From: Lepas anatifera
Taxonomy: Eukaryota > Arthropoda > Thecostraca > Lepadidae
Assembly: GCA_034440635.1 (NCBI GenBank)
Contig: JAOTON010002228.1
Coordinates: 658,001-722,000, forward strand
Length of the DNA: 64,000 nucleotides
Direction: 5' to 3'
Shown in pieces: positions 44,870-62,050 of the stretch. Every line of letters begins with the position of its first letter. Position 1 is the stretch's first letter. The position numbers were made by a program, and so were the translations under genes. The notes beneath the pieces were generated by a model. It was not told the DNA's origin, did not search any database, and saw only the letters and a list, made by a program, of their open reading frames with translations.

Positions 44870-46870
44870 TCCAATTGATTAGTTAGAAACATTCACAAAC
44901 ATCTGCCACGTGGTCAAGCAGAAAACCTTCGGATAAGTTTTAGGCTTATGTTGCTACCCATATGAAGTGTATTTTTCTTGAAAATAAATAGGTATTTGTT
45001 AAGCTAATGGAATACAGTTTGTAGGTGTATGAATTTTTAAATAAATCCCATGATTATCCATATTCTGGTTAGCCGCAGTCTTCTGCGGAACAGTAAAAAT
45101 CATATACCAAGTTTATTATTTGATACTGATGTATTCATTAAAATATTAAAAATGTTTTTAAAAATAAATGTGATTGTGAAGCTGATGAAATTCAGTTCAT
45201 GAGTGCTTAAATTTATAGAAAAACTTTGCACACACATCTACCACGAGACCATTCAGGGTAAGTTGTAGGCTTATTTTGCTACCCATATGAAGTGTATTTT
45301 TCTTGAAAATGAATAGGTATTTGTTAAGCTGATGGAATCCAGTTTGTGGGTGTATGAAATTTAAAATAAATCCCATGATTACCAATATTCTGGTTAGCCG
45401 CAGTCTTCTGCGGAACAGTAAAAATCATATACTCAATTTATTAATTATTTGATAATCCTGAATTCATTAAAATATGACAAATGATCTTAAATATAAATGT
45501 GATTGTGAAGCTGATGAAATTCAGTTCATGAGTGTTTAAATTATAGAAAAAACTTTGCACACACATCTACCACGAGACCATTCAGAGTAAGTTGTAGGCT
45601 TATGCTGCTAGCCATATAAAGTGTATTTTTCTTGAAAATGAATAGGTATTTGTTAAGCTGATGGAATCCAGTTTGTGGGTGTATGAATTTTTAAATAAAT
45701 CCCATGATTATCCATATTCTGGTTAGCCGCAGTCTTCTGCGGAACAGTAAAAATCATATACTCAATTTATTAATTATTTGATAATCCTGAATTCATTAAA
45801 ATATGAAAAATGATCTTAAGTATAAATGTGATTGTGAAGCTGATGAAATGTCAGTTCATGAGTGCTTACATTTATAGAAAAAATTAGCACACACATCTAC
45901 CACGAGACCATTCAGAGTAAGTTGTAGGCTTATGCTGCTCGCCATATGAAGTGTTTTTCTTGAAAATAAATAGGTATTTGTTAAGCTGATGGAATCCAGT
46001 TTGTGGGTGTATGAAATTTAAAATAAATCCCATGATTATCCATATTCTGGTTAGCCGCAGTCTTCTGCGGAACAGTAAAAATCATATACTCAATTTATTA
46101 ATTATTTGATAATCCTGAATTCATTAAAATATGAAAAATGATCTTAAATATAGATGTGTTTGTGAAGCTGATGAAAATCAATTCATGGGTGCTTAAATTT
46201 ATAGAAAAACTCTGCACACACATCTGGCACGAGACCATTCAGAGTAGGTTGTAGGCTTATGTTGCCAGCCATAGGAAGTGTTTTTCTTGAAAATAAAGAG
46301 GTATTTGTTTAGCTGATGGAATCCAGTTTGTGGGTGTTTTTTTTGTTTATAAATCTTTATATGTTTATAAATTTTATAATTTTGTTTGTAAATCCCTTGA
46401 TTATCAATATTCTGGTTAGCCGCAGTCTTCGGTGGAACAGTACAAATCATATACCCAATTTATTAATACCAATTATTTGATAATGCTGAATTCATTGCAA
46501 TATGAATTATTTTCTTAAAAATAAATGTGATTTAGAAGCTGATGAAATTTAGTCCATGGGTGCTTAAATTTATAGAAAAACCCAAAGTGATTGATATTCT
46601 GATGAGCTGCAGCCTTCTGCGGAGCAGTACAGATTATGTACCCAATTTATTAAATATTTTACTATGTTGAAACCACTAAAATGTGAAATCCATTTTTCTA
46701 AAAACAAGTATTTGGTAAACTGATAAAATCCAGTTTATGGGCTCATGGGTTTTTAGAAAACTCAAAATTATTTATATTCTGATGAGCTGCAGTCTTCTGT
46801 GGAGCAGTAAAAATGATGTACTGAACTTATTAACTATCTGATAATGTTGAATTCCCACTTTTCAAGGAAA
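44870..46870 (+). repeat. ~327-bp tandem array with a conserved hairpin
   Basis: Spacing of the AGGTATTTGTTAAGCT phrase is 325, 329, 328 and 327 bp. The following copies are 365, about 187 and about 181 bp apart and more diverged. Each unit retains CCGCAG-TCTT-CTGCGG or a variant (from 45070, 45395, 45724, 46052, 46418, 46608, 46788). Outer bases GTT/AAC also pair around an AG bulge. AT-rich elsewhere and non-coding. Confidence 0.88.
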
Positions 46871-49545: not shown

Positions 49546-49779
49546 CCTTGGCCAATATCTGGGTGGCGTTTGAGCTTCCCATCAACGCCCATCTGACATC
49601 AAAGAGAGCCGCCTTGCAGTGCTTAATCCTATCCCAAAGGGAAGCGGCCACGCCCTCGCCCACCCCCTTGGATCTCCACCTGAGGACCCCCAAGTTAATG
49701 GCGGACACGGACATACGTGAATCGAAGGAGGCAGATGCCTCCATCGCCCATCAGCGCTCCCTGAAACGGTCACTGCAGC

Positions 49780-50078
49780 CCTAAAAGGCTGATGGCGCCT
49801 CCTGATATGCCACTTCCCCCAGGATGCGAAAATCGGCGCCCAATGATAATATTTGGAGCCCACCTGGTGAGTTGTCGACCAGAAAAGGCGCGCCTGGTCT
49901 AGATGACACCCCACGTGGGGAAGGGAAGGCACCCCCTTACAGGAGGGTGCCCCTCCCTCCGAATGCCAATCCTGGATCTGCCTATGTTCAAGGGAAGCCG
50001 GGCATACACAGATCCAGGGGCAAAGAAGGCATGTGCTCATCCCTCCCGAACGACACTTGATGCCCCCTGAAATGGTCA
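49780..50078. repeat. GGCGGATCC-family repeat, left part, split by Transib
   Basis: Contains AATCGGCGCCCAATGAT, CCTGGATCTGCCTATG and AAATGGTCACGG. It is interrupted after CGGCG at 50083 by the Transib element; the family sequence resumes at 52553. Confidence 0.7.
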
Positions 50079-50478
50079 CGGCGCACTGTGTTACAAGGAG
50101 GGCCTAAAATGGTACGAAAATCCATTTTTCGACCAACACAGAGTGCCTTAGGATGACTTTATATCAAAGGGAAACATCCCAGACCATCCGGGAGCATATC
50201 TCAATCTCCGATAAAATGTCTGTTTATCCGATTTTAGATGTGGTAAAGGTGATGTTTTCGATAGGACAACAAATATTGCTTCCGACTGTCAGAACGTACC
50301 GGAACTTGGAGCGCTCGCGAACATGCTTTCATATCTCTGAAAACACACCGAATGATTTTTTTTTAAACTACGACTTGTTTGCAGCACAATTATATGCTTT
50401 TCAATGTTGTGATTTCTTTAAAAGTATTTCATTTCATTTTATGTATTTTAATAATTTACAACTCAGAGATTTCCACTG

Positions 50479-51014
50479 AAGGGTAAACTTGATTAAGCCG
50501 GCAAAAAATCCCACAGCTTCCCACAATATGAGACCACCACAGTGGTAGCTGGACACATGTTGACAATGCGTACAGAAAGTTTCAGCTGCATTTAGTTGCA
50601 TTTCCATGATTTATGACCGATTATGTAAGGGTATGTCGGCGGCCCGCGCGCTGTCCCCCGCCCGCCGCCGGGTCGCCGCCCGTCCAACCGACCTCTTATC
50701 TGCACGGCCTGGCCGCTTCTGTTGGGGCGCGTGGTGGAACCATGGACGGCAAACAAAGCGGTGGGATGAAAATACAAATAAAGTTAGGTTTTTCCACCGA
50801 ATGGTGGGTATAACACATACCCTGGTCAATGTATGCGCTCAGAAAAGTGTGCCGAGTTGTTTGAACAGGACACTTGGTACAACTGGGCTGATAATGAAAG
50901 GCAAACACATGAGGCGCGTTTGCATTATAATCCCTCGGTGCAAACGGTTTCGAAGCAAACCTGGAATTGTGTTGGAAAGGACACAGGCAGGTGATCTAAA
51001 GGGTAAGAAACAAT
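50479..51014 (+). other. Transib interior: GC-rich patch, possible 5' region
   Basis: 50630-50720 is GC-rich (CCCGCCCGCCGCCGGG). A few in-frame segments occur to 51014 (for example KKQFACDFGGERLW near 51008-51050), but no clear start was found. Confidence 0.4.
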
Positions 51015-51490
51015 TTGCTTGTGACTTCGGAGGTGAACGGTTGTGGTCTCGAGATGGAGCTCTGTGTAAAAAAGAGTGACCTAGTAGAAAAACTGGTAGA
51101 TAAAGGTACAATATCAGACGCTAAGCGCGGTGTCGAAGTAGCAAAGAAATACCTTATTAGTCGCTTAAAGGAGGGAGAATTATTGACAGACGAATCTGAG
51201 ACTATGCTGGATCAGCAACTTGAGTTGTTTTGCAGGAATTTCTGACAGAAGTGGTCATTGGTCAGCCGAGACAAGAACAGGGTTTTCAACAAATATGGAA
51301 CCCTCTTGGCAGAGAAAATATATTTCACTGTCCAAAACCAGAGTTTCAGCGAAAACAACGTCTTCGGCCGCACCTGACGCAGCAGAACCAGGTCCGAGCA
51401 AGCCCCTGGCAAGAAAAAGACGCCGGCCCCAAAAGAGATACAGAGACCTAAGCCAGAAAAGGCGTAAGCGAACCTCTGAAACTGTCCTAT
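51015..51490 (+). pseudogene. Coding remnant inside Transib, possible transposase N-terminus
   Basis: The frame 51015-51245 gives a helical, charged segment with KKSDLVEKLVDKGTISDAKR and KKYLISRLKEGELLTDESE. After a frame break near 51240, LTEVVIGQPRQEQGF continues in a second frame. A third frame gives GPSKPLARKRRRPQKRYRDL followed by a basic cluster. A K.YR.LS.R.KRR-type motif is, from memory and unverified, a feature near the N-terminus of Transib transposases. The RAG1-like catalytic core is absent; it was replaced by GC-rich repeat sequence at about 51490-51545 and a SINE. Confidence 0.5.
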
Positions 51491-51656
51491 GGGGGGCCCT
51501 CGGGGGGCGGGGGGCTGACCTTGCCGCCCCCCTTGGCTACGCCCCTGATTCGATATGGTGTTAACAACTCGTTGATAGTGCTTGCAGTAGCTAAAATACA
51601 TTTTGCTCAGAATGGTATTGGAGCATTTTTTTCTCAGAATGCTGTTGAACTGAATG

Positions 51657-51875
51657 CCGCCCCGGTAGCTCAGTTGGCAGAGCGTTGGGCTCCGGCCCGC
51701 TGCTCAGAAGCATGCAGTGGCAGTGCATGTCCAGGCTGGGATCGGTTCCCCTGAGACGCTCCGGCGCTCAATAGTTTGCCCGACGTAGGTCGGCTGGCAA
51801 CCGACTGGTGAGAGGGTGACCTGAGCGGGGCGGCCGTCCCTGTGCTTTGTGGGGCGTTAAACTTTGGTTTCTAAA
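51657..51875 (+). mobile_element. tRNA-derived SINE, second family
   Basis: The head has a perfect A box (TAGCTCAGTTGG) with GCAGAGCG after it, an enlarged middle and a weak B box (GGATCGGTTCCC). The tail contains GGGGCGTTAAACTTTGG, similar to the tail of the SINE at 11474. It is not an intact tRNA gene because the anticodon arm region is expanded. A target duplication was not defined. Confidence 0.65.
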
Positions 51876-52500
51876 TTATCCCTTCATTGTGGGAGTTGTT
51901 CGTTCGGGTGGTGGGGTCGGGGTCTCCGTGACAAGTCCCTTGAGGACTTAAGTGAGACTCCGACTCCAGCAGCCGTACTGGGAATAAGTTGGACAAAATT
52001 TATAAAAAACTGTACATCCCTCTTTGGAATTTCGTCTATTTTTCCATTTCTGATGTTAAGTCCTACAAATCACTATTCAAATCATCTGATCTCATTTGAG
52101 GTCAGCCTGAGAAAGCCCATTTTAGTAAAAGAGAGGTAGGTCTGGTAGCTGCTCATCTGAAAGTAGGATGAACAGCTTATTGATGTCCGATGTTATTTGA
52201 ATTTTCCCACCGAAACTGGCAGGATCTTCCACTGAAACATCCGACCTCGGTTCAGGTCAAATGGAAAAGATGCATTTGCGGGGCATCAAAACACAAAGAA
52301 AACAATTTCGTAAGATCAGGTCTTTATGATGAAGTCTTAACTTAAGTAAATGAGAAACTGATTCTGATCATTTACGAACATAAGAATTCAACTTGACCTA
52401 GGTCAAAGACCTGACCTGACTGAAACTTGAAACTAAACCTCAATAATGCTCAGGATATCAGCATACTGTGGTTCAAATTTGAAGGCAATATCTTTGATAG
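51876..52500. other. Transib interior, right part; no gene
   Basis: Short frames only. 52230-52430 has several AGGTCA/TGACCT hexamers. Confidence 0.4.
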
Positions 52501-52557
52501 AACGCAAGATATAGATTTTTGTACCGTTTTAGGCCCTCCTTGTAACACTGTGCGGCG

Positions 52558-53330
52558 CCCCCTGAAAGGCCGGTATCCCCCCTCCCTGAAATTTTACTTC
52601 CTACTCCCCTCTTCAGGATGCATAAATCGGCCCCTGCCGCCGAAAGGTTTTGCGCCCACCTGAAAGTTTTTCCCGGCCAAAAGTGTCGCACCCTAGTCCC
52701 GATGCCCCCCCTGATTGATAATCATGAACCTGTTTATGTACAAGGGGTGCTAGGCATACGCGGATCCAGGGGGAAGTTGCGCCTTGAGATGGTCACGGTG
52801 CCTCTACGAAATGATCACAGTGCCCCCTGAAACGTCGGTGTCCCCCTCCTGAAATGTCTCTTCCTACTCCCCTCCTCAGGATACGAAAATCAGCGCTTAC
52901 AGATAACTTCGGCAACCATTTTATAGATTTAGTCGGCCAGAAGTGGCATCCCCTGGTCTGGATGGCGCCCCCAGGGAAGGCGCCTTCCCCCGATGGCCAG
53001 TCCTGGATCTGTCTGTGTTCAAGGGGGGCTAGACATACGCAGATCCAGGGGGCAAAGGGGAAGGTGTCCCTCCCTCTCGAGCGACCCTTGGTGCCCCCTG
53101 GAATAGTCACGGCACCCCTCGAACGTCGATGCGCCCCCCCTGAAACGTCGCTTCCCATCCCCTCAGGATGCAAAAATCAGCACCTGCCGATAGAATTTTG
53201 CGCCCACGTAATAGCTTTCCCGGTCAAAAGTGGCGCTGAAAAAGAAGATCGGAAGTCCAGATAGCTCCGCTCTCGGAAGCTGCCCACCCCCCCCCGACGA
53301 TCGGCAATTCTAGATCCGCCTGTGGCAAAC
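52558..53330. repeat. GGCGGATCC-family repeats, right part
   Basis: Continuation of the family split by Transib, with at least two tandem or nested copies (GATACGAAAATCAGCG, TTTTGCGCCCAC, CTGGATCTGTCTGTG and AGATCCAGGGGGCAAAGG recur). Boundaries are degenerate. Confidence 0.65.
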
Positions 53331-53947: not shown

Positions 53948-55186
53948 AACTAAATTCCCTTTATTCCTCGTGTGAAAACGGCTATTATGTCTTACTTTTA
54001 CTTATGTGGTACTTTTGAGCTGTGGACTTTCCGACTTTGTGGACAATTTCACCATTGGACATTTAGATAGTTATTCATGGGGACGTTCTAGCTTTGACTC
54101 TTTCTTCTTGAGGTCGAATTAAAATCCGCCCTGCTATTTGAGTAAAGTGCGTCTGTGCGTCTGTCTGTCTGTCGTCTTTTGTAGTTTAGCTGATTGGGAT
54201 TGGCTGCAAACTATAGGCGATATTGAGACGAAACTTTTTGTAATGTGTCGGAAAATGTTGTGGGGAGTGCCTTTGAGGGTCTCAAATTCTGGTTGCAGAT
54301 AGTTTGCACGTGGCACATGCTCAAAGTTGAACTTTTCTCCCCATTGACTTAACATGGGAAACGGCGACGAAAAATAGAAACACGGCAAAACGGGCACCAA
54401 TTTGTAGACCGCTCCAAAACGTCCCACTTAGGCCAATCTCGGAAAAAGGATACCCGAAACGTAGCACCGCGTTCTGGCTACACAGTGGATACAGATTAAA
54501 GTTCGCACGTGCTGCGTGCTCAGCAGGGCGTGCGTTCTTCGGAATGGGGGTAGTCGTCTAAAACCACGGTTTTTTCGACATTTCTCCGAAAGTAAGAGCC
54601 GTACGGACTCGAAACCGGCTCACATCGATGAAGCGAAAGGATTTGCACGTTGCGGTGTGCTTTTGGTAAGAAAATTCCATTTGAGAAGAAAATTAATCAT
54701 GAAAAACACCAAAAAATCGACAAAAAATCGAAATCAAAATAGGGACTGTATCTCGGAAACTGTTGATGCACGATGTGGGGTATCTGTGAGTCAAGGTTGC
54801 GTCCATGTACCGTCTATCCGATGCAGGAAAGACCCAGGCCGTAGGTTGCACGTGCTGGTCACGAAGAGGTGTCAAACAGGTCACTGTCGATTTTTGGGTT
54901 TTGCGGTTTTTCGACTGTAACTTGGGAACGGTGAGCGATAAAAACACGAAATAAACCGCACGGTGTGCTCCGAGCGAAGGCGCATCTTTTTATGTATTTA
55001 CACCTAACCACTAAACACGATATCCTAGAAAATTATTCCAAAAGATTAAAGTGCTCTAAAATTACAATTCAAAATGGTCACACAATTTGTTCAAATTTTC
55101 TATGTTTTAATGGCTTTTAAATTCCAAAACATAAAGCATCGTAAACGATGGAAAAATACCTTCAATGATCTGGTTTTATTTTCTAT

Positions 55187-55813
55187 TGTTATAGCGACGG
55201 TAATTGTTGTAACGGCTACTGTGTGCGTGTTGACTCGGTAGCCTAATGGATAGAGCACTCGGCTCTTGTATGGGCACCCCGAGTTCGATTCTTGGTGTCG
55301 GCGCGGCTTTTGCGCGCGCTTTTCTGTGTCATGTGACCTGGATCACGTGACCGTGAGGTGACGCCAGGCATGTGCTGGCGGCGGAGGGCGCAGTCGCCTC
55401 AACGCAGCGCTACAGGTAGGACCTCCAGCGGGGCCCTGCCCACACCTCCCACGGTAGGTACCTCGAACCCTTCGAGTACCGGTCCCTCCCCGCACGGTAC
55501 CTCGAAACCTTCGAGTACCGGTCCCTGCCTCGCGGTACCTCGAACCCTTCGAGTACCGGTCCCTCCCCGCACGGTGCCTCGAACCCTTCGAGTACCTGCC
55601 TTCCCTCCCCTGTGCCCCCATTGATTGAGCGCCCTACCTGTAAGTAACGCTTGGTTACCACACGTGTTTTCGGGTGTAGCTGCCGGTGCCATAGTTTGAT
55701 TTAGTTTCCGCCGGTGTGTTATGTATGTGCTTGTGTGTTTCCATTTAGACAAATAGACCCGTTCGTTTTCAAAATACCTTTCTTATACGCAGCATCGTAT
55801 ACAAACGTAACAC
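55187..55813 (+). mobile_element. Insertion in U0 with tRNA-like head and 39-bp repeats
   Basis: Units U1 and U2 lack this segment between TTTTCTAT and the CTAATAGTTT phrase. It contains a tRNA-like head at 55233-55303 with A box TAGCCTAATGG, B box GAGTTCGATTC and a CTTGTAT loop suggesting tRNA-Thr(TGT). A tandem array follows. It is probably a SINE-like insert; no clean TSD was found. Confidence 0.6.
55455..55605 (+). repeat. 39-bp tandem array, four copies, each a hairpin
   Basis: The unit includes GGTACCTCGAACCCTTCGAG then TACCGGTCCCTCC. Spacing 39, 38, 39. Each copy folds by pairing TCGAA with TTCGA and GGTAC with GTACC around CCC. Confidence 0.92.
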
Positions 55814-56049
55814 TATGTACCTCTAATAGTTTAAGAGTAATAGGCCCAAGTCTATAACAGTTACAAAATTTCATTTGGAAGCAAGAAAAATCCGTCTTAA
55901 CATTGTAAATATCTGTCGGAGAATAAAATTCGCATGTGCTCAGAGGTTCCTCCACTTGAGAGATGCTCAAGTATTTAAAATAGCCACAATTTTGTTCTTG
56001 AAAATGCAAGTTTTCAAAATGCGATGTTTTCGGCCGATGCCTAGGGGAG

Positions 56050-56640
56050 GAAAACGATCCGCAGCGAGGCCGCGGGGGTGTCCGCGAGTGAAGCTCGCGG
56101 ACTGGAACCAGAGGAGGCGCGGGCAACCGCAGCCGACGAAGGCGTACCGTTGCACCGCAGGTTAGGTGCGCCGCAGGCCGGCTAGCTGCATAGGGAAAAA
56201 GTTAGGTAAGGTTCAGTTATGTCATGACAGCTTCGAATATTGCGGCGAAGCCGCGGGGGTGTCTGCAAATGAAACTCACGGGCCGGAGCCTAAGGAGGCG
56301 CGGCGCAGCCGCAGCCGACGAAGGCGTAGCTATGCACTGCAGGTTAGGGAGGCACCTAACCGCAGGTTATGTGCGCCGCGGGCTGGTTTGCTGCATAGGG
56401 ACAAGGTTGGCTAAGGTTTGGTTATGTCATGACAGCTTCGAACAGAGCGGCGAAGCCGCGCGGGTTTCCGCGAGTGAAACTCGCGGACCGGAGCCTGAGG
56501 AGGCGCGGCGGAGCCGCAGCCGACGACGGCGTAGCGATGCACTGCAGGTTAGGGAGGCACCTAACCGCAGGTTAGGTGCGCAGCAGGCCGGTTTGCTGCA
56601 TAGGGACAAGGTTAGGTAAGGTTCGGTTATGTCATGACAG
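56050..56640 (+). repeat. GNA-hairpin repeat block in U0, three copies of ~205 bp
   Basis: Each copy has GCGGC-GAA-GCCGC, CGCGAGT-GAA-ACTCGCG, GCCT-GAGG-AGGC, GCGGC-GCA-GCCGC, GCGTAGC and CCTAACC-GCA-GGTTAGG (or parts of these), ending in GGTTATGTCATGACAGCTTC. Confidence 0.9.
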
Positions 56641-56899
56641 CTTCGCTCAGGGAAATGTCATTGAGGGACCTTGGAGCGACGGGAAAGCTAACTTTTAAGG
56701 GGTTGGGGATAACGACGCACGAACTGCTGAAGTTTTATGCTGGATGGTCAAGGATAAATATGAGGTAGGGAAACCCTCCACATCAAGATAGGGTTTGTGT
56801 TTGGGGATCGCAACAGATAAATATGGTTCGGCTTGGTTTCCTCACAAGAGCTTTTTGCAACAAGCATAGTGGGCTCAGCGAAGCGAGCCAAGGCGCTTG

Positions 56900-58856
56900 T
56901 CTATAGTACTATTTGAGTAAAATGCGTCTGTGCGTCTGTCTGTCGCTCTGTCCGTCGTCTTTTGTTTTTTAGTTGATTGGGATTGGTTGCAGGTCAAACT
57001 AAAGGCGATATTGAGACGGAACTTTTGTAATCTGTCGGAAATTGATGTGGGGAGTGCCTTTGAGGGTTCTCAAGATCTGGTTGCAGATAGTTTGCACGTG
57101 GCACGTGCTCAAAATTGAACTGTTCCCCCAAGTAACTTAACATGGGAAATGGTCATGAAAAATATAAACACGGCAAAACGGGCGTCATTTTGTAAGCCGG
57201 TCCACAACGTCTTACTTTGGCCCATCTCGGAAAAAGTGTAGCAGAAGCGTGGCACAGGGTTTTTGGTATACAGTGGATGCAAATTAAAGTTTGCACGTGC
57301 TGCGTGACCAGCAGGGGGTGCGTTCTCCGAAATCGGGTTAGTCGTCTAAAATCACGGTTTTTTCCACATTGGTCGAAAATTAAGAGGGTTACGGGCTCCA
57401 AACTGACATAGACCAATGCAGCTCATAGATTTGTACGTTTTTATGCCCTTTTTCTATGAAAGCCTCCATTGAGAAGATAATTAATCATGAAAAACACGAA
57501 AAATTCGACAAAGAGATCAAAACCAAAATAGAGTCTGTATCTCGGGAACTATTAATGCGCTATGTGGGGTATCTGCAAGTCAGAGTTGTGTCCATGTACC
57601 GTCTATCCGATGCAGGAAAGACCCAGGCCATAGGTTGCACGTGCTGGTCACGAAGAGGTGTCAAACAGGTCACTGTCGATTTTTGGTTTTTGCGGTTTTT
57701 GGACTGTAACTTGGGAACGGTAAGCGATAAAGAGACGAAATAAGCCGCACGGTGTGCTCCGAGCAAAGGTGCATGTTTTTGTGTATTTACACCTAGCCAC
57801 TAAACACAATATCTTGGAAAATTACTCCAAAATATTAAAACCCTCTAATATTACAATTCAAAACGATCACACAATTTGTTCAAATTTTCTATGTTATAAT
57901 GTCTTTTAAATTCCGAAACATATATATTCGTAAACGATGGAAAAATACCTTCAATAATCTGGTTTTATTTTCTATGTAACTCTAATAGTTTCAGAGTAAT
58001 GTGCCAAAAAGTTAAACAGTTGCAAAATTTCCCTTCGAAGCACGGAAAATCCGTCTTAACACTGTAAAAATCCGTCTGAGAATAAAAGTCGCATGTGCTC
58101 AGGGTTTCCTCCACTTGAAAGATGTGCAAGGATTTCAAATGGCCACAATTTTGTTATTGAAAATGCAAGTTTTCGAAAAACGATGTTTTCGGCCGATGCC
58201 TAGGGGAGAAAAACGATACGCAGCGAAGCTGCAGGGTGTCCGCGAGAAAAACTCGCGGACGGGAGCCAGAGGAGGCGCGGCGCAGCCGCAGCCGACGAAG
58301 GCGTAGCGTTGCACCGCAGGTTAGGTGCACCGCAGGCCAGCTAGCTGCACAGGGACAAGGTTAGGTAAGGTTCGGTTATGTCATGACAACTTCGAACAGC
58401 GCGGCGAAGCCGCGGGGGTGTCTGCGAGTGAAACTTGCGGACTAGAGCCTGAGGAGGCACGGCGGAGCCGCAGCCGACGAAGGCGTAGCGTTGCACCGCA
58501 GGTTAGGGAGGCACCTAACCGCAGGTTAGGTGCCCCGCAGTCCGTTTTGCTGCAAAGAGACAAGGTTAGGTAGAGTTCGGTGATGTCATGACAGCTTTGC
58601 ACAGGGAAAGGTCATTGAGGGACCTTGGAGCGAAGGCAAAGCCAACCCTTAAGGGGTTGGGGATAACGACGCACAAACTGTTAAAGCTTTTATGCTGAAT
58701 GGGCAAAGATAAATATAAGGTAGGGGAAAACCCTCCAATTCAAGATAGGGTTTGTGTTTGGGGATTGCGACAGATGAATAGGGTTCCGCTTGGTTTCCTC
58801 ACAACAGCTTTTTGCACCAGGCTTAGCAGGCTCAGCGAAGCGAACCAAGGCGCTAG
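56900..58856 (+). mobile_element. Helitron-like unit U1
   Basis: Starts TCTATAGTACTATTTGAGTA immediately after U0 and ends in hairpin GGCTCAGCGAAGCGAACC (58829-58846), AAGGCG, CTAG (58853-58856), then T. 1957 bp. The hairpin repeat block at about 58210-58610 holds two copies. One hairpin reads GCAGC-GAA-GCTGC (58220-58232), a paired change against GCGGC/GCCGC in the other units. Confidence 0.85.
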
Positions 58857-60962
58857 TCCGCCTTACTATTTGAGTAACGTGCGTCTGTGTATCTCTCCGT
58901 CTGTCGTCTTTTGTATTTTAGTTGATTGGGATTAGCTGCAGGTCAAACAAAAAGCGATATTGAGCGAATCTTCTTGTAATGTGTCGGAAAATGTTGTGGG
59001 GAGTGCCTTTGAGGGGTCTCAAGTTCTGATTGCAAATAGCTTGCACGTTGCACGCGCTCAAAGTTGAAATTTTCTCCCCATTGACTTAACATGGGAAACG
59101 GCGATGAAAAATACACACCGGCAAACCGGGCGTCATTTTGTAAGCCGGTCCACAACGTCTCACTTTGGCCCATCTCGGAAAAAGTGTAGCAGAAGCGTGG
59201 CACAGGGTTTTTGGTATACAGTGGATGCAAATTAAAGTTTGGACGTGCTGCGTGACCAGCAGGGGGTGCGTTCTCCGAAATCGGGTTAGTCGTCTAAAAT
59301 CACGGTTTTTTCCACATTGGTCGAAAATTAAGAGGGGTACGGGCTCCAAACTGGCATAGACCAATGCAGCTCTTAGATTTGTACGTTTTTATGCCCTTTT
59401 TCTATGAAAGCCTCCATTGAGAAGATAATTCATCATGAAAAACACGAAAAAATTCGACAAAAAGATCAAAACCAAAATAGGGTCTGTATCTCGGGAACTA
59501 TTGATGCGCCATGTGGGGTATCTGCAAGTCAGACTTGTGTCCATGTACCGTCTATCCGATGCAGGAAAGACCCAGGCCATAGGTTGCACGTGCTGGTCAC
59601 GAAGAGGTGTCAAACAGGTCACTGTCGATTTTTGGGTTTTGCGGTTTTTCGACTGTAACTTGGGAACGGTTAGTGATAATAAGACTAAATAAGACGCACG
59701 GTGTGGTCCGAGCAAAGGCACATCCTTTTTGTATTTACACCTAGCCACTAAACACAATATCTTAGAAAATTACTTCAAAAGATTAAAGTGCTCTAAAATT
59801 ACAATTCAAAACGGTCACACAATTTGTTCAAATTTTCTATGTTTTAATCACTTTTAAATTACGCAACATATATATTCGTAAATGATGGAAAAATACCTTA
59901 AATTATCTGGTTTTATTTTCTATGTAACCGTAATAGTTTCAGAGTAGTGTGCAAAAGTGTTAAACAGTTGCAAAATTTCCCTTAGAAGCACAGAAAATGC
60001 GTCTTAAAATTGTAAATATCCGTCGGGGAATAAAAGCCGCATGTGCTCAGGGGGTCTTTCGCTTGAAAGATGTGCAAAGATTTCGAATAGCCACTATTTT
60101 GTTATTAAAAATGCAAGTTTTCGAAATACAATGTTTTTGGCCGATGCCTAGGGGAGGGAAACAATCCGCGGCGAAGCCGCGGGGGTGTCCGCGAGTGAAA
60201 CTCGCACCCCGGACCCTGAGGAGGCGCGGCGCAGCCGCAGCCAACGAGGAAGTAGCGTTGCACCGCAGGTTAGGGAGACACCTAATTGTAGGTTAGGTGC
60301 GCCACAGGCCGGCTAGCTGCATAGAGAGAAGTTTAAGTAAGGTTCGGTTATGTCATGACAGCGTCGAACAGTGCGGCAAAGCCGCGGGGGTGTGCGTGAG
60401 TGAAACTCGCGGACCGGGGCCTGACGAGGAGTGGGGCAGCCGCAGCCGACGAGGGCGTAGCGTTGCAAAGCAGGTTAGGGAGGCACCTAACTGCAGGTTA
60501 GGTCCGCGGCAGGCCGGCTAGGTGCATAGGGACAAGCTTAGGTAAGGTTCAGGTATGTCATGACAGTTTCGAACGGCGCGGCGAAGCCGCGGTGGTGTCT
60601 CCGAGTGAAACTCGCGGACCGGAGCCTGAGGAGGCGCAGCGCAGCAGCAGGTGACGAAGGCGTAGCGTTGTACCACAGGTTAGGGAGGTACCTAACCGCA
60701 GGTTAGGTGCGCCTCGGGCCGGCTCGCTGCATAGAAACAAAGTTAGGTAAGGTTCGTTTATGTCATGACAGCTTGGGACAGGGAAAGGTCATTGAGGGAC
60801 TTTGGAGCAACGGGAAAGCCAAATTTTAAGGGGTTGGAGATAACGACGCACAAAATGCTGAGGTTTATTGCTTTTAACTTTTTATATGGTTCGGCTTGGT
60901 TTCCTCACAACAACTTTTTGCAACAGGGGTAGTGGGCTCAGCGAAGCGAGCCAAGGCGCTAG
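58857..60962 (+). mobile_element. Helitron-like unit U2
   Basis: Starts TCCGCCTTACTATTTGAGTA directly after CTAG of U1. The terminal hairpin is at 60935-60952 and CTAG at 60959-60962. 2106 bp, with three hairpin-repeat copies (about 60165-60780). No coding capacity. Confidence 0.87.
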
Positions 60963-62050
60963 TCCGCCTTACTATTTGAGTAACGTGCGTCTGTGGATCT
61001 GTCTGTGTGTCTGTCTGTCTGTCCGTCGTCTTTTTTTAGTTGATTGGGATTTGCTGCAGGTCAAACTAAAGGCAAAATTGAGACAAAACTTTTTCTAATG
61101 TGTCGGAAAATGTTGTGGAAAATGCCTTTGAGGGGTCTCAAGTTCTGGTTCCAGATAGTTTGCACGTGGCACGTGCTTAAAGTTGATCCTTTTATCCCAT
61201 TGACTTAACATAGGAAACGGCGATTAAAAATACAAACACGGGAAAACGGGCATCGTTTGGTAAACTGGTCCAAAACTTCCCATTTTGGCCCATCTGGACA
61301 AAAGTGTGCCCAAAACGTGGCACAGGGTTTTTGCTAGACAGCGCATGCAGATTAAAGTTTGCACGTGCTGCGTGACTAGCAGGGTGTGCGTTCCCCGGAA
61401 TGGGGGTAGTCGTATAAAATCACAGCTTTTTCGACAGTGCTTAGAAAATAAGAGGGGTACGGACTTGAAACTGGCACCGATCGATACAGCTCAGAGATTG
61501 GCACGTTTTGGCACCCTTTTTGTAAAAAAACTCCGATGAAATCAATCATGAAAAACACGAAAGATTCGACAAAACGGAGTCTGTATCTCAGAAACTGTTG
61601 ATGCGTGACGTGGGGTATCTGCGAGTCGAAGTTGTGTCTATGTACCGTCTATCCGATGCAGGAAAGACCCAGACCGTAGGTTGCACGTGCTGGTCACGAA
61701 GTTGTGTCAAACAGGTCACTGTCGATTTTTGGGTTTTGCAGTTTTTTTACTGTAACTTGGGAACGGTTAGAGATAAAGAGAGAAAATAAGACGCACGGTG
61801 TGGTCCAATGAAAGGTGCATCTTTTTTGTATTCACACCTAGCCACTAAACACAATATCTTAGAAAATTACTCCAAAAGATTAAAGTGCTTTAAAATTACA
61901 ATTCAAAACGGCAACATAATTTGTTCAAATTTTCTATGTTTTAATGACTGTTAAATTCGAAAACATATACCATCGTAAACAATAGAAAAATACCTTCAAT
62001 GATCTGGTTTAATTTTCTATTTAACCCTAATAGCGTCAGAGTAATGGTTA
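60963..62050 (+). mobile_element. Helitron-like unit U3, interrupted
   Basis: Has the same TCCGCCTTACTATTTGAGTA start as U2 and the same body up to a GTCAGAGTAATGG phrase. It is then cut by the 3' end of the minus-strand LINE. The hairpin block and CTAG end should lie beyond the LINE, outside the window. Confidence 0.82.

Follow-up and report, generated by a model that had tools for sequence, protein, structure and literature searches.

The window analysed here is a 64,000-nucleotide stretch of the Lepas anatifera genome (contig JAOTON010002228.1, positions 658,001 to 722,000), and a Transib element of 2469 bp lies at its positions 50084-52552. CGGCG abuts both outer edges of the element as a 5-bp target-site duplication (TSD), and the sequence just left of position 50084 reads ...CACGGCG. 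The two 42-bp terminal inverted repeats (TIRs) are 90% identical to each other; with the TSDs counted in, the inverted pair 50079-50125 / 52511-52557 spans 47 nt and is 89% complementary. The features of the element are collected in Table 1.

Table 1. Features of the Transib element and its flanks, in window positions.
Feature	Position	Strand	Remarks
Left TSD, CGGCG	50079-50083	.	end read-out and inverted-pair search
Left TIR, 42 bp	50084-50125	+	
Left heptamer, CACTGTG	50084-50090		followed by 23 bp, 50091-50113
Left AAAA, end positions 23-26	50106-50109		conserved across families compared
Left nonamer-register block, ACGAAAATC	50114-50122		
Transposase N-terminal frame remnant	51054-51374	+	stop at 51243-51245
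Same protein in another frame, basic stretch	51375-51484	+	F1 homology ends at 51484
63 bp without L031 homology	51485-51547	.	replaces ~845 bp of L031
Family sequence resumes, element positions 1465-1569	51548-51652	+	alignment to L031 and siblings
SINE-like insertion, 354 bp, tRNA-like head CCCCGGTAGCTCAGTTGGCAGAGCG	51655-52008	+	absent from L031 there
3' part of element	52009-52510	+	alignment to siblings
Right TIR, 42 bp	52511-52552	-	
Right nonamer-register block, ACAAAAATC	52514-52522		
Right AAAA, end positions 23-26	52527-52530		conserved across families compared
Right heptamer, CACAGTG	52546-52552		23 bp at 52523-52545
Right TSD, CGGCG	52553-52557	.	

The letters and spacings given in the original prediction are right: CACTGTG, 23 bp and ACGAAAATC on the left, CACAGTG, 23 bp and ACAAAAATC on the right, and CGGCG on both sides. 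It had also claimed an exact recombination signal sequence (RSS) heptamer and eight of nine nonamer bases at one end, and we see precisely this at the right end (7/7 and 8/9, with ACAAAAACC as the nonamer), while the left end gives 6/7 and 7/9. That a 23-bp register is found at both ends, with no 12/23 pairing, can be read directly from the two ends. Both also carry TTA at positions 8-10. Using the base frequencies of the window, the probability of a chance match to ACAAAAACC at one fixed spacing is 1.3e-4 for at least 8/9 and 1.6e-3 for at least 7/9, or 8e-4 and 1e-2, respectively, over six spacings (11-13 and 22-24). The values for the two ends cannot be multiplied, because the ends are inverted copies of each other.

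The element lies in a degenerate tandem repeat with spacings of ~260-315 bp, which covers 49738-50083 and 52553-53264 and is also seen at ~15407, ~15827 and ~30104; its GGTCACGG motif supplied the target site. Compared with its closest counterparts elsewhere in the window, the rejoined target agrees in 37-40 of 60 bases, giving an empty site that is only approximate. Further tandem arrays, with units of ~330 bp and ~2 kb that are ~82-89% alike in the longer matches, occupy 44931-46581 and 54125-62046.

The interior of the window copy is decayed. Over 100 residues, its N-terminal remnant shares 79% identity with P0001, a protein of 117 aa that was the sole database match found, and in sibling frames the basic stretch of this N-terminal protein contains a GRP-type motif. 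An equivalent of the nonamer-binding domain (NBD) with conserved GRP positions has been described for Transibs in the text of PMC9435367, and the sibling motif may represent this same NBD equivalent. Compared with the sibling locus L031, the window copy aligns at 92-94% identity over element positions 1-1401, 1465-1569 and 1925-2469; the same pieces are 89-97% identical to complete siblings, with values of 90-94% for 52007-52552. The ~845 bp that are missing relative to L031 include the part with homology to the Transib C-terminus. A complete catalytic acidic triad is thus not present in the window copy, where the matching segment is missing and only the N-terminal part is kept. No Transib or RAG1 match came from Pfam scans of four open reading frames (ORFs) of the window, of the N-terminal reading and of the ORF in L031, and a PDB search with the N-terminal reading gave nothing useful. 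The tRNA likeness of the SINE-like head, CCCCGGTAGCTCAGTTGGCAGAGCG, was judged by eye; searches of the window for tRNA genes with ARAGORN (bacterial settings) and for Rfam families returned none. Sequence related to the SINE-like insertion recurs at other places in L024 and L039; L022 and L023, where the Transib insertion is the same one as in the window, have it too. We file the window copy as a non-autonomous Transib derivative whose family membership is given by its ends.

The original prediction had proposed a genome search with the TIR for full-length copies. Using the 64-nt left end of the window element as query against the 1.04 Gb assembly (2126 contigs), we obtained 138 candidate places, of which 40 were scored, those 40 matching at 95-100%. 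Longer stretches were compared for 20 loci, the next in rank behind the window copy itself; the family to which they and the window element belong is called F1 here. The left end CACTGTG, 23 bp and ACGAAAATC is present at 20/20 loci, which had been chosen by that end. Right ends were found at 13 loci, all with the heptamer CACAGTG and 11 with the block ACAAAAATC; the block ends in A in L030 and has lost one base in L029. For the other seven of the 20, the end pattern found no right end within the stretches examined, and in L037 the homology ends 8 bases short of it. From these 20 left and 13 right ends, it is evident that the small difference between the left and right ends of the window element recurs from copy to copy. 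A typical F1 sibling is ~2.86 kb long. The search yielded many copies with the same ends, but an intact F1 transposase was not seen among them.

Some of these loci have left flanks in common: L021, L022 and L023 with the window, L025 with L033, and L034 with L035. The 20 loci and the window therefore comprise 16 distinct insertions. The window element is found with the same flank on three other contigs (C2084, C668, C925 and C36 being the window and L021-L023), which implies either a duplicated host segment or assembly duplicates. With the 300-bp left flank shared at 99.7-100% identity, the chances are even that these four loci are assembly duplicates or haplotigs and that the insertion has been overcounted, although this would alter the copy count only, as the left flanks of the other loci define 15 further insertions. 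Both ends could be read for 11 distinct F1 insertions, and ten have a perfect 5-bp duplication (CACTG three times, CGGCG and CGGTG twice each, and GGCTG, CACCG and CAGCG); the flanks of L029 are unmatched (GGTTG and CAATG). A target pattern C-R-S-Y-G fits 11/12 tabulated duplications and 3/7 further ones from the sister family F2, giving 14/19 overall with 5/19 that do not fit.

Evidence for the identity of the F1 transposase comes from the siblings. L031, which has the same two ends, contains a 303-aa open frame in which residues 168-261 match 6PQN, the solved Helicoverpa Transib transposase, with an E value of 5.6e-20. The match spans a SEEAxExxNK stretch, which we take to hold the catalytic glutamate. 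In L028 the F1 left end is followed by ~6.5 kb of other sequence and then by a 340-aa Transib C-terminal frame that holds both the SEEAxExxNK and a TMIDG stretch. Frames of the same protein are found in L042 (388 aa, the longest F1-type frame listed) and L043 (361 aa, known by its frame, its ends not having been seen). In these three frames, the ones read for the catalytic core, the second and third acidic motifs are present and the first was not found; the F1-type frames listed also include two of 366 aa (C1020) and 364 aa (C303). The F1 family combines CAC heptamer ends, a GC-rich 5-bp TSD and a Transib/RAG1-core homologue in its siblings, and its heptamers fit CACWRTG, the Transib type.

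The sister family F2 has long open transposase frames. Open frames of 781, 781, 781, 782 and 753 aa were found at C618, C1434, C116, C565 and C1597 (L041 and L044 among these loci), a lower bound since 60 of 1342 candidates were scored, and the other four proteins are 99, 99, 99 and 95% identical to that from C618. The match of one F2 protein to 6PQN covers residues 8-457 of the 497 in the chain, with an E value of 2.7e-102. The inverted ends of F2 are 33 bp long. Two copies align over 3874 bp at 99.3% identity, with homology breaking at the CACAGTG ends, and matching 5-bp duplications, compared by eye, flank 9/9 insertions for which both ends were read (C618, C1434, C388, C565, C797, C42, C64, C838 and C217). 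The F2 end pattern occurs at 220 places compared with one for the backward control, and among the first 100 matches listed, many are in inverted pairs ~2.96 kb apart. Because its open frames are near-identical, its duplications match and its ends are paired, F2 has likely been active recently, judging from the sequence. Together, the sibling (L031, L028) and F2 proteins bear out the Transib identity originally proposed for the window element.

The original prediction went on to suggest that a RAG-like recombinase in this lineage used, or still uses, such a signal. As the genes found are Transib, the wording should be Transib transposase in place of RAG-like recombinase. We consider it highly improbable that the ends belong to an element of the RAGL/ProtoRAG type, with RAG1L and RAG2L genes, even though the CAC heptamer and 5-bp duplications are common to RAGL elements according to the text of PMC7204232. 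The F2 protein is far closer to the Transib transposase than to RAG1, for which the best chain gives an E value of 0.0034 and the Pfam model a score of 15.1 bits, under the cut-off of 25, and the F1 sibling ORF is significant for Transib only. The same text describes protostome RAGL ends as having AAA conserved at positions 8-10, where the F1 ends have TTA. The Pfam RAG1 model had 0 matches in the genome, but was equally silent in all 14 control genomes, so this result does not show absence.

The remaining claim concerns the nonamer. An alignment of TIRs from all copies had been proposed as a check, and within F1 both the heptamer and the nonamer-register block are indeed conserved, yet the whole TIR is near-identical and the loci were picked by that end, so this alignment is uninformative on the nonamer. 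Other families were compared instead. Further ends were sought beside other Transib C-termini, with the first choice made by likeness to F1 and F2. In 12 flanks, the best CAC site beat nearly all shuffles in four cases (reached by 1, 0, 1 and 2 of 100 shuffles for L049, L052, L053 and L056, respectively); for the others, the score was reached by 8 (L051), 17 (L054), 23 (L048), 31 (L047), 44 (L058), 94 (L057), 97 (L050) and 100 (L055) of 100. L047 lacks a heptamer that its homologue L049 carries, and the heptamer of L057 is altered. This gave seven families for comparison, F1 to F7, six of them with supported ends and F5 represented by one copy. The F3 and F7 ends are each supported by two copies in which homology stops within 2 bp and 1 bp of the end, respectively. 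At the F4 end, homology of L053 to five further copies breaks, and heptamers are intact in L094, L097, L099 and L100. L093 (C1666:1117434-1117745) is of F4 type with a listed 742-aa open frame; homology in its 3' flank reaches the F4 end, where the heptamer scan found none intact. The F6 end has 361 matches in the genome and 0 for its control, and the 16 that were read show nine different flanks. Further support comes from a repeat in the flank, which picks up again directly after the end.

The F6 data suggest that these ends sit inside larger repeated units. The 361 places include C77, C211 and C415 (L077-L092), and on C77 the ends recur on the same strand every ~23-30 kb. Of the 16 that were read, L081, L082, L085, L086 and L092 have one flank in common, and L077, L078, L084 and L090 another. 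F8 (L050, L095 and L096) was considered as an added family and set aside, having no confirmed end. An out-of-sample test of eight extra flanks returned five of F4, two of F8 and one (L098) with no end, and so no added family.

Across the seven families, the heptamer is nearly invariant, and the resemblance to the RSS that had been predicted holds up in this part of the end. It holds less well for the nonamer, as a close match at 23 bp is seen for F1 (8/9 and 7/9 at its two ends) and in part for F6 (7/9 in the C1738 copy, 6/9 in the common version), compared to 2-5/9 in the others (F2 3, F3 2, F4 4, F5 4, F7 5). Close resemblance to the vertebrate nonamer thus appears, from these alignments, to be mainly an F1 feature. 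Information averages 1.92 bits per column over the heptamer, 0.99 over positions 8-30 and 0.82 over positions 31-39; the initial selection of F3-F7 and n = 7 bias these figures. AAAA at end positions 23-26, which lies inside the 'spacer' of the original prediction, is present in 7/7 families.

It may be, then, that the 8/9 nonamer is close to a chance product in a Transib end, with RSS homology limited to the heptamer and the AAAA at 23-26 serving as the inner recognition block. We regard this as an evenly balanced question. The information figures and the constant AAAA argue for it, as does the comparison of F2 with F1 at fixed register, where 14-15/23 spacer positions are identical and 2-5/9 in the nonamer position. 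Given a 22-bp spacer, however, the F2 block agrees with F1 in 5-7/9 and reaches 6/9 to ACAAAAACC, as does F7. The bias in the information figures also weighs against it, as does the candidate F8 end in L095 (CACTATG), unconfirmed, which has AAAA at 21-24 and is a possible exception to the 23-26 position.

A register scan over the seven families bears on the same question, although it is exploratory, since the registers came to attention once the data had been seen. Averaged over the families, the match to ACAAAAACC peaks at spacing 12 (5.29/9, with 4.86 at 13), and there is a second local peak at spacing 23 (4.57/9). When the inner bases of the six supported families were shuffled, 0/10000 shuffles reached the spacing-12 value and 2/10000 the spacing-23 value. 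Without F1 (F2, F3, F4, F6 and F7), these counts become 0 and 182 of 10000, and three registers (13, 15 and 37) rank above 23; adding F5 and the unconfirmed F8 candidate to this set gives 0 and 54 of 10000, with 23 outside the top five registers. For F2, F3, F6 and F7 alone, the fractions are 0.0004 (spacing 12) and 0.046 (spacing 23). That A-richness in the 23 register beats most shuffles without F1 speaks against a pure chance match, and A-richness around spacing 23 is probably real, though weak. Any A-rich tract will score well against an A-rich nonamer, so the scan is no proof of a shared binding mode.

These peaks raise the idea that Transib ends are double signals, each with A-blocks in both the 12-RSS (23-26) and 23-RSS (33-36) registers, one helical turn apart. 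We consider this improbable, the more so since three registers outrank 23 when F1 is removed. If true, both vertebrate signal types could derive from one ancestral end, by keeping either the inner or the outer block, and, should both blocks prove to be contacted, existing transposases would allow the origin of the 12/23 rule to be tested. In the text, as distinct from the figures, of literature on Transib and RAG ends (including PMC8355894, PMC9435367 and PMC11844651), we found no statement that one end holds both registers, and we make no claim to priority.

Overall, the window element is well supported as an ordinary fossil Transib in a genome rich in such elements, and we are highly confident that it is a decayed copy of the F1 family. 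In the history that we infer, a Transib transposase acting in trans would have bound both ends and cut beside the CAC heptamers, and the element would have been excised via hairpins on the flanks, a chemistry taken from the text of work on Hztransib (PMC6941560). Insertion into a GC-rich 5-bp target, duplicated as CGGCG, would have completed this cut-and-paste transfer. Afterwards, the middle was lost in part, the SINE-like insertion gained, and the stop and frame change acquired.

At least six delimitable Transib families, among them one in which several near-identical genes are open, make this genome a useful natural set for the study of end recognition. A caution also follows, in that, once families are compared, the inner block conserved best is no longer the '23-RSS nonamer' but one at the position of the 12-RSS nonamer. 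Transib is regarded as a cousin or ancestor of RAG1. The RSS likeness of Transib ends is already in print (PMC8355894, PMC4411706, PMC6941560), so the window element is a new instance and not a new link. The texts of these and related papers describe symmetric 20-22-bp spacers, with 12/23 asymmetry in some Transibs (PMC8355894, citing earlier work), some ends with heptamers and nonamers identical to the RSS consensus (PMC6941560), symmetric ends in most Transibs with little or no nonamer likeness in Hztransib (PMC8289069), and a split of Transibs into two subgroups (PMC9435367). In our data, the RSS resemblance is real; that of the heptamer was known already, and that of the nonamer is largely family-specific. 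The earlier work behind the description of spacers is presumably that of Kapitonov and Jurka in 2005.

Finally, the F1 ends can be placed among known systems. Hztransib and the Transib superfamily (6PQN and related entries) have the same CAC heptamer ends, 5-bp TSDs and RAG1-core-like transposase, with presumably the same acidic motifs; F1 differs in that its nonamer-register block is nearer to the vertebrate nonamer than those of its sister families, and in that an intact F1 transposase was not seen. ProtoRAG and RAGL elements also share the CAC start and GC-biased 5-bp duplications. Protostome RAGL ends differ in the AAA noted above, and RAGL elements hold RAG1L and RAG2L genes between their ends. 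The vertebrate RSS, cut by RAG1/RAG2 next to antigen-receptor gene segments, works by 12/23 pairing, unlike F1, which has the 23 register at both ends; in its letters, the vertebrate 23-RSS resembles the F1 right end in the exact CACAGTG, the 23-bp spacing and eight of nine nonamer bases.
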